Origin: Anaerocolumna sp. AGMB13025
GTDB taxonomy: Bacteria; Bacillota; Clostridia; Lachnospirales; Lachnospiraceae
Assembly (NCBI RefSeq): GCF_029689925.1
Contig: NZ_CP121445.1
Coordinates: forward strand, 1,543,001-1,607,000
Length of the DNA stretch: 64,000 nucleotides
Direction: 5' to 3'
Shown: in pieces, positions 25,655-26,443 of the stretch
Layout: each line of letters starts with the position of its first letter
How positions within the stretch are numbered: the first letter of the stretch is position 1
Notes under the pieces: model-generated
Told to the model about the DNA's origin: nothing
The model's database searches: none
Seen by the model: the letters and a program-made list of their open reading frames with translations, nothing else
Program-made: the position numbers and the translations under genes

Positions 25655-25762
25655 TTGAAAGAAAATATTATGAAGAGAGGATGCACTTATGAATTCTTTC
25701 AACCTTTTTATATGTGGCAGTAACACATCTGCTTACAGATGTGTTATGCATTGGGTGTAAAT
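25655..25762 (+). promoter_or_regulatory. two-hairpin leader element, copy 4
   Basis: GGTTGAAAGAA/TTCTTTCAACC hairpin (about 25655-25705), then GGCAGTA-ACACATCTG-CTTA-CAGATGTGT-TATGCATTGGGTGTAAAT directly followed by the ATG at 25763. The flanks match the copies at 6295, 14901 and 43646, while the stem bases are completely different but still paired. Confidence 0.8.
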
Positions 25763-26443
25763 ATGACAATTCTGGAAACAAATAATCTTATGAAACATTA
25801 TGGTAACAACGAAGCAGTTCTGGTAAAAGCCCTGGACGGAGTAAATCTACAAATTGAAAATGGGGAATTTGTTGCCATTGTCGGCACCTCCGGCAGTGGA
25901 AAATCCACCTTATTACATATGCTTGGGGGACTTGACAGACCCACAAATGGCACGGTTACGGTAGACGGGAAAGAGCTATTTTCCTTAAAAGAAGAAGCAC
26001 TTACGATTTTTCGGAGAAGAAAAATCGGTTTTGTTTTTCAAAATTATAACCTTGTCCCGGTTTTAAATGTGTATGAAAATATCGTCCTTCCCATTGAACT
26101 GGATGGAAATACAGTGGATAAGGCTTATGTGGAGCAAATTATAAAAACCCTGGGGCTTGAGAGTAAACTGAACAATCTGCCCAATAATTTATCCGGAGGT
26201 CAGCAGCAAAGAGTGGCTATTGCCAGAGCCCTGGCCACAAAACCGGCAATCTTGTTAGCCGATGAACCTACCGGCAATCTTGACAGTAAAACCAGCCTGG
26301 ACGTCATGGGTTTACTAAAAGTAACCGGGCAGCAGTTTAAGCAGACCATTGTAATGATTACCCATAATGAAGAAATCGCCCAGATGGCGGACCGGATTAT
26401 CCGCATTGAAGACGGCAGGATAACAGGCGGTGGCAGACAATGA
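25763..26443 (+). CDS. ABC transporter ATP-binding protein (module 1)
   Basis: About 226 residues, MacB/LolD/BceA type: Walker A GTSGSGKST, Q-loop FVFQNYNLVP, signature LSGGQQQRVAIARAL, Walker B ILLADEPTGNLD, H-loop ITHNEE. The ATG at 25763 is chosen because it ends the GGGTGTAAAT leader and matches the family start. Overlaps the permease gene by ATGA. Energises the FtsX permease. Confidence 0.94.
   Translation: MTILETNNLMKHYGNNEAVLVKALDGVNLQIENGEFVAIVGTSGSGKSTLLHMLGGLDRPTNGTVTVDGKELFSLKEEALTIFRRRKIGFVFQNYNLVPVLNVYENIVLPIELDGNTVDKAYVEQIIKTLGLESKLNNLPNNLSGGQQQRVAIARALATKPAILLADEPTGNLDSKTSLDVMGLLKVTGQQFKQTIVMITHNEEIAQMADRIIRIEDGRITGGGRQ

Follow-up and report, generated by a model that had tools for sequence, protein, structure and literature searches.

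A dispersed two-hairpin repeat of about 108 bases, often found between start codons and older Shine-Dalgarno sequences, in Anaerocolumna sp. AGMB13025

Element copies in the window

The ABC transporter ATPase gene shown here is preceded by a two-hairpin element that recurs in the window (the whole 64,000-nucleotide stretch of contig NZ_CP121445.1 that was analysed). The initial annotation had recognized five copies, and all five match a covariance model, R1 (35.6-105.7 bits), which we built from 22 genome copies with hairpins 1 and 2 as its structure; the 22 included copies 14902 and 25652, whose matches are therefore built in, but not the other three. The copies and their neighbours are given below, assigned from the sequence where no other evidence is named.

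25652..25760, + strand: element copy before the ABC transporter ATPase gene (R1, 90.0 bits, E 6e-18; used in building R1)
25653..25704, + strand: hairpin 1 of this copy, GGTTGAAAGAA (25653-25663) pairing with TTCTTTCAACC (25694-25704); the helix covaries across 104 distinct copies
25682-25686, + strand: TGCAC within the large hairpin-1 loop of this copy
25714..25749, + strand: GTGGCA (25714-25719) and hairpin 2 of this copy (GCA, a bulged G, TAACACATCTG/CAGATGTGTTA, TGC); the helix covaries
25753..25760, + strand: tail GGGTGTAA of this copy, its own Shine-Dalgarno-like sequence, with the ATG at 25763 starting 2 nt later (also from tail anti-Shine-Dalgarno energy over arrays)
25646..25651, + strand: GAGGTT, an older Shine-Dalgarno-like sequence abutting this copy upstream (left-flank anti-Shine-Dalgarno energy -6.8 kcal/mol)
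25763..26443, + strand: ABC transporter ATPase gene, downstream of this copy (PF00005, E 3e-38)
14902..15009, - strand: gene-proximal unit of a tandem pair with a period of 108 (R1, 105.7 bits; used in building R1)
15010..15135, - strand: first (upstream) unit of the tandem pair, hairpin 1 degraded (R1, 61.8 bits; outside the training set)
14089..14898, - strand: gene that the tandem pair starts, encoding a membrane protein that has a TRADD-N-associated transmembrane domain (PF20712, E 8e-14; ATG 3 nt past the element)
6278..6351, + strand: short variant of 74 nt whose hairpin 1 is small and lacks the GCCAC loop (R1, 56.3 bits; outside the training set)
6352..6466, + strand: more sequence of hairpin-like character, separating the short variant from the WYL gene (by eye)
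6467..7375, + strand: gene for a WYL-domain transcriptional regulator (PF13280, E 6e-18)
43647..43750, - strand: divergent element copy with a poor hairpin 1 (R1, 35.6 bits, E 9e-6; outside the training set)
43383..43643, - strand: 86-codon open reading frame for a small cysteine-containing protein, ATG 3 nt past the 43647 copy

Start codons at 14898, 25763 and 43643 follow their copies just as the initial annotation had claimed; no start codon directly follows the 6278 copy, and the WYL gene begins 115 nt further on. The shared architecture ascribed to the five copies holds in so far as all match R1, but the 6278 copy is short and lacks the large hairpin-1 loop, hairpin 1 is degraded or poor in the 15010 and 43647 copies, and the ending of the 25652 copy is GGGTGTAA rather than the GGGGGTAA that had been given. 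The core motif, GGCAGTA-stem-TGCA-GGGKGTAA, occurs four times in the window and in none of 100 shuffles.

Several other features of the window deserve mention in their own right. Just 5' of the 25652 copy, an inverted repeat (AGTCTATCTATGG/CCATAGATAGACT, by eye) followed by a T-run at 25607-25645 may be a terminator or attenuator ahead of the ABC gene leader, and the hairpin-like sequence at 6352..6466 may represent another kind of element. T-box leaders (Rfam RF00230) lie at two places, 10369-10583 and 59404-59664. Unrelated tandem arrays with units of roughly 15-46 nt occupy 7518-7715, 23107-23236, 46741-46977, 51775-52021 and 53881-54261; the array at 7518 stops shortly ahead of a Shine-Dalgarno sequence and ATG (AAAAGGAGTACTATTATG), that at 23107 lies less than 100 nt before the GAAGAGGTTTAATAATG start, and that at 51775 about 100 nt before GGGAGAAAAAATTTATG, so that repeats seem to expand readily near gene starts in this genome.

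Structure, copy number and distribution

Hairpin 1, most commonly GGTTGAAAGAA/TTCTTTCAACC, encloses a large loop that holds GAAAGGATGCCAC, and is followed by a U-rich link, GTGGCAGTA, a hairpin 2 of variable stem, TGCAAT, and the tail GGGTGTAA. For pair counts, 100 chosen loci were run through R1 and 108 matches kept at E <= 1e-9, 104 of them distinct. Across these 104 copies 94.9% of pair cells in the two hairpins are standard, 15 of 23 pairs show two-sided changes (7.6 after shuffling), and covariation scores 0.278 compared with 0.091 when shuffled, with none of 500 shuffles as high on any measure, although the alignment was fitted to R1 and so is biased towards structure, and related copies inflate shuffle tests. 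Sliding the pairing partners abolishes the signal. Selection on structure is thus supported by covariation of both stems, as the initial annotation had anticipated; the stems may, as it suggested, act at the level of RNA and not of DNA only.

A complementarity between the hairpin-1 loop and the link, TGCCAC/GTGGCA, is paired in 94.8% of cells and its covariation score was equalled by one of 500 shuffles; one pair only is changed on both sides, which is not above chance, and the pairing is imperfect in the 25652 copy. A pseudoknot here is plausible, and would be absent from the short variant of 74-76 nt that lacks the TGCCAC loop, represented by the window copy at 6278 and by 75-76 nt forms in Parablautia muri and other Lachnospiraceae. 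Some copies carry a repeated hairpin 1 or an additional GTGAAACTTGTTTCAC hairpin. When single sequences were folded, two copies had z-scores of -3.45 and -4.91, but the 14902 copy reached only -1.44 and did not form hairpin 1. The idea that the structure exposes the Shine-Dalgarno sequence was set aside: predicted accessibility of the tail was not above that of a shuffled-element control (p 0.19), and that of the ATG only slightly so (p 0.02). A separate hairpin, GATGCYRC..GYRGCATCAT, sits directly left of R1 copies at genome positions 495573, 2717286, 5944635 and 6244785; these are its only four matches, with none away from R1 copies.

The initial annotation had foreseen further copies in the genome, and R1 finds at least 149 matches in its 6.8 Mb at E <= 1.1e-4 (the best 150 of 6998 candidates scored), two of which are hairpin-1-only units adjoining other copies. 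The divergent window copy at 43647 is absent from this list. The core motif occurs 33 times genome-wide and its reversed pattern not at all. A pattern blind to both tail and start codon (GCCAC, 12-42 bases, GTGGCWGT) has 93 matches compared with four for its reverse; 12 of the 93 fall outside the list of 149 R1 matches, and seven of these 12 are themselves R1 matches, the weakest at E 0.0017. Five full-length copies at separate places are identical over all 108 bases. Many near-identical, dispersed, non-coding copies are what one expects of small interspersed repeats or MITEs, as are the element-free orthologous sites described below, and this structured unit of roughly 108 bases has both. No terminal inverted repeats were found by reading, as the ends AGGTTGAAAG and GGGTGTAA are not inverted copies and the hairpin arms are internal. 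No Rfam family matches the element at gathering score, the window yielding only the two T-box leaders elsewhere, and two copies gave only sub-threshold matches.

All 15 genomes of the host genus that were searched contain R1 matches at E <= 0.01, from three to at least 149 per genome. Across the family, six of 299 genomes satisfied a strict pattern; two belong to the genus, and at least one of the four outside it looks like a chance match. In a scan of named genomes R1 confirmed 24 of the 80 loci listed, Anaerocolumna being the commonest, with Herbinix and Parablautia also represented.

Start codons, older Shine-Dalgarno sequences and element-free orthologues

The 149 matches listed form 125 arrays: 109 single copies, 11 doubles, three triples, one of four and one of five. 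The enrichment at start codons that the initial annotation had predicted is pronounced, since in 107 of the 125 arrays an ATG that opens 40 codons or more stands at +1 to +3 after the last copy, compared with 1.3% of random positions in the fetched loci. A start lies at 0-12 nt in 112 of 125 (10.9% at random), and the 13 arrays without one by this rule include copies before other hairpin units and ATGs that open short frames. Among the seven extra copies recovered by the tail-blind pattern, four lead into a long frame whose ATG is at +1 to +4, two have (by reading) an ATG at or inside the match end, and one has none. The same holds in other genomes, where a start lies within 15 nt for 37 of 41 distinct copies (a set that excludes four R1 matches: one each in loci L087 and L114, the second in L106 and the reverse-strand one in L103); one of these 37 starts is a GTG belonging to the tandem copy that follows, and of the four misses three either are a tandem copy or have a longer tail ahead of the ATG. 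In a subfamily with a GTG-type hairpin 1, ATT or ATC stands between tail and ATG in 14 of 19 copies, and its end may therefore reach the start codon itself.

Of 30 proteins scanned, 29 come from starts directly coupled to the element (out of 112 start-coupled arrays in all), and 25 of these 29 pass a curated family cut-off: adk, murG, murB, gatB, HPr protein, hisC, coaX, rsmG, purH, nifH, nagB, deoB, argJ, sfsA, fliQ, malQ, spoIIE, an ABC ATPase, the TRADD-N-associated membrane protein, a VCA0040-like protein, a penicillinase-repressor family protein, LrgB, a GH2 enzyme, an ABC_tran_2 protein and a MOSC protein. Below the cut-off are trmL-like, cobU-like and BPD transporter-like proteins, with one further protein lacking a match; the remaining start-coupled genes were assessed from first residues alone. 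No common function is visible among the 29, in agreement with the earlier impression that the genes served have nothing obvious in common.

What the initial annotation overlooked is that the element often sits between a gene's older Shine-Dalgarno sequence and its ATG. Over the 20 nt left of the first copy in the 125 arrays, the median duplex energy with what we take to be the anti-Shine-Dalgarno sequence is -5.3 kcal/mol, compared with -2.4 to -3.0 at four control distances, and 43% of left flanks reach -6 or below, compared with 8-16%; 42% of left flanks lack a good Shine-Dalgarno sequence (energy above -4). In other genomes the signal is weaker (median -3.8 versus -2.8; -6 or below in 29% versus 7.5%). 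We compared this energy with R1 bit score, which is only a proxy for copy age, in the 80 of 125 flanks that were left after removal of hairpin- or copy-like ones, and the older signal proved weaker beside divergent copies (rho -0.40, p 2e-4): energies of -5 or below were found in 77% of the 35 flanks of copies scoring at least 95 bits, in 80% of 10 at 80-95 bits and in 37% of 35 below 80 bits. The element tail is itself a modest Shine-Dalgarno sequence (median -6.2), and as it too weakens in copies below 80 bits (-4.8), part of this trend is general drift.

The element-free orthologues of nagB, HPr and rsmG, and gatB of the congener G303, have a Shine-Dalgarno sequence directly before ATG, where this genome has Shine-Dalgarno sequence, element and ATG in that order. 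For HPr, GTGAGGAGATTA-element-AAATG here corresponds to AAAAGGAGATTGGAAAAATG in the congener G309; for gatB, GGAGGCGTA-element-ATTATG corresponds to GGAGGTGTAATTATG in G303; and for nagB, AAAGGTACAGGTAAA-element-ACATG corresponds to AAAGGTACTGGTGAAAAATG in G309, with G301 near-identical. At murG, GGAATGGAGGAAATAAAAATG in G301 equates here to GGAATGGAAAAAATAA, ten more bases, the element and ATG, and the old GGAGG now reads GGAAA, so the old signal has decayed. The starts of rsmG, hisC and cobU are similar in kind, with upstream regions that align less well.

A joined query of 18 chosen genes returned 29 loci in G301 and G309, with start regions displayed for 27 of the 29. An R1 match (E <= 0.1) is present at the orthologous start in three of 29 loci, namely spoIIE in both species and malQ in G309, and 26 have none. 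It is important to note that some match-free sites were not always empty, since murB of both G309 and G301 has what are likely truncated remnants with a GGGAGTA tail. The spoIIE copies at the shared site are diverged, with stems altered on both sides (by reading), which suggests that structure was maintained after insertion, although gene conversion may account for it. The gatB genes of G301 and G309 (loci L268 and L269), sfsA of G301 (L312) and the window at 6352-6466 have a different hairpin unit, with a GG-rich tail right before the start. In one example GCCGCC-ATT-GGCGGC is followed by GCGAGGAAAAC and ATG; such units are perhaps a second family of elements with Shine-Dalgarno tails.

Origin and significance of the element

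Given its position, mostly 1-3 bases before starts and often behind an older Shine-Dalgarno sequence, the element likely enters the gap between that sequence and the ATG and takes over initiation with a signal of its own. In our reading a targeted mobile process likely put this structured repeat there, and the GGGTGTAA tail likely serves in place of the old signal. Entry into the gap would strand the old Shine-Dalgarno sequence about 110 nt upstream, while the tail would supply GGGUG a few bases ahead of the AUG. The initial annotation had stated that the element carries the Shine-Dalgarno sequence; a Shine-Dalgarno-like tail does stand 2 nt before the ATG at 25763, and ribosomes presumably use it as such. 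The stems may act in RNA as an insulated, 5'-protected start module, and not solely in DNA during movement. A broader proposal, which we offer more tentatively, is that the element targets the translation start as such: it would recognize the gap between Shine-Dalgarno sequence and AUG, possibly at the level of RNA or the ribosome, land 2-3 nt before the start, and thereby rewire more than 100 genes, core ones included, onto a portable hairpin-plus-Shine-Dalgarno module.

That movement is aimed at the gap, and is not random with loss elsewhere, we infer from the five identical copies, all of which lie 2-3 nt before an ATG, and from the rarity of copies elsewhere. Four of the five stand behind a Shine-Dalgarno-like flank and the fifth behind the apparent tail of an older copy. 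A repeat that inserts anywhere and survives only at start codons is the best of the alternatives, though an unlikely one: BOX and RUP are known examples of small interspersed repeats (PMC3049150), and a tail that is a usable Shine-Dalgarno sequence keeps the gene translatable, but the identical copies are presumably the youngest, and yet none of the five lies away from a start. Other intergenic sites should also tolerate copies under random insertion, yet copies there are rare, and even the pattern blind to the tail added seven copies of which six meet an ATG (two of them by reading).

Less probable still is a riboswitch or protein-bound leader through which a ligand would control a large regulon by masking the Shine-Dalgarno sequence. 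Two covarying stems, a conserved loop complementarity and a location at the start codon would suit such a leader, and tandem copies are known in some riboswitches. The scanned genes have no pathway in common, however, no Rfam family matches, and the element is absent at 26 of 29 orthologous starts examined in two congeners. Masking of the Shine-Dalgarno sequence by the U-rich link fared no better: the proposed helix pairs in 78.0% of cells, yet does not covary (328 of 500 shuffles as high). The initial annotation had left the choice between a cis-regulatory RNA and a repeat that moves into 5' leaders; identical copies, tandem arrays and element-free orthologous sites favour the repeat, while the absence of a common gene theme and of covariation in the masking helix speaks against a shared regulatory role.

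We regard as very improbable an intron-like or ribosome-bypassed insert, removed from the RNA or skipped so that the old Shine-Dalgarno sequence is back beside the AUG; joining the flanks does give normal spacing where the element-free orthologue is clear, but the old signal is weaker beside divergent copies and lost at murG, and the element retains its GG-rich tail. The least credible reading, in which a Y1 transposase moves the repeat as a non-autonomous, PATE-like element of IS200/IS605 type, would fit hairpins near both ends, the want of terminal inverted repeats and tandem units joined after GTAA, but PF01797 has no match in this genome, the one with most copies, in a search that was positive in five of 14 control genomes.

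For targeted placement itself, copying by template switching or strand annealing at short Shine-Dalgarno-like homology (GGNNNTAA) is one candidate, and a guess; it would fit the partly alike Shine-Dalgarno sequences at both ends and the flush tandem arrays. Left flank and tail resemble each other more than permuted pairs do (5.23 versus 4.75 in 109 arrays, 5.02 versus 4.59 in 90 arrays; sd 0.08; none of 2000 permutations as high in either), and deviant tails such as GGGAGGAA, GGGAGTTA or GGGTGGTA reappear on the left flank. A target-site duplication may be the source of the tail in some copies, but the five identical ones show no exact duplication (alike at 5-7 of 9 positions). Mobilization by a reverse transcriptase was discarded, as RVT_1 counts do not track copy number: among genomes that are partly incomplete, G301 and G308 have at least 110 and at least 103 matches and no RVT_1, while G306 and G307 have three matches and three RVT_1 each. 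The searches for Y1 in this genome and RVT_1 in those of the genus identified no mobilizing enzyme, and no insertion was caught in progress. One genome of the genus, G302, has 24 RVT_1 matches, many identically scored, as though reverse transcriptase elements had recently multiplied there.

The Bacillus cereus bcr repeats are likewise lineage-specific repeats dispersed in Firmicutes, and we know of no start-codon targeting by them. PATE elements, which derive from IS200/IS605, are also short, palindrome-bearing and geneless; they depend on a Y1 transposase, of which none was found here, and have to our knowledge no preference for start codons. BOX and RUP of Streptococcus pneumoniae are small structured non-coding repeats in many copies (RUP about 107 bp, BOX modular), some of them co-transcribed with genes, with mobility judged by comparing insertion sites, and resemble the element in size, structure and dispersal (PMC3049150). 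In the part of that account considered here, they are described with terminal inverted repeats and in repeat clusters, whereas our element has no terminal inverted repeats, and it mentions neither placement between Shine-Dalgarno sequence and ATG nor an element-borne Shine-Dalgarno sequence (PMC3049150). In marine Beggiatoaceae the TAACTGA direct repeats, of which one genome has 169 sets, mostly lie within several nucleotides upstream of start codons, before genes without a functional theme, and so are similar in position; a translational role has been suggested and their mode of spread is not evident (PMC4679880). As described there, TAACTGA is 7 nt long, has little Shine-Dalgarno character and overlaps the expected Shine-Dalgarno site (PMC4679880), unlike a 108-nt two-hairpin unit with its own Shine-Dalgarno-like tail, an older signal on its left and element-free orthologues. 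Our literature search, mostly outside subscription journals, found no report of a repeat between a Shine-Dalgarno sequence and a start codon.

One would expect mobile elements either to stay clear of gene starts or to disrupt them. The present element is mostly found at starts, among them those of core genes such as adenylate kinase, murG and gatB, and the probable reason is that it brings a replacement for the signal that it displaces. If this is correct, the genome would hold a natural series of more than 100 swapped ribosome-binding sites, with element-free orthologues as controls, in which one could follow the evolution of start regions and ask whether translation is insulated or tuned by the stems, and what machinery finds the gap between Shine-Dalgarno sequence and AUG in DNA or RNA.
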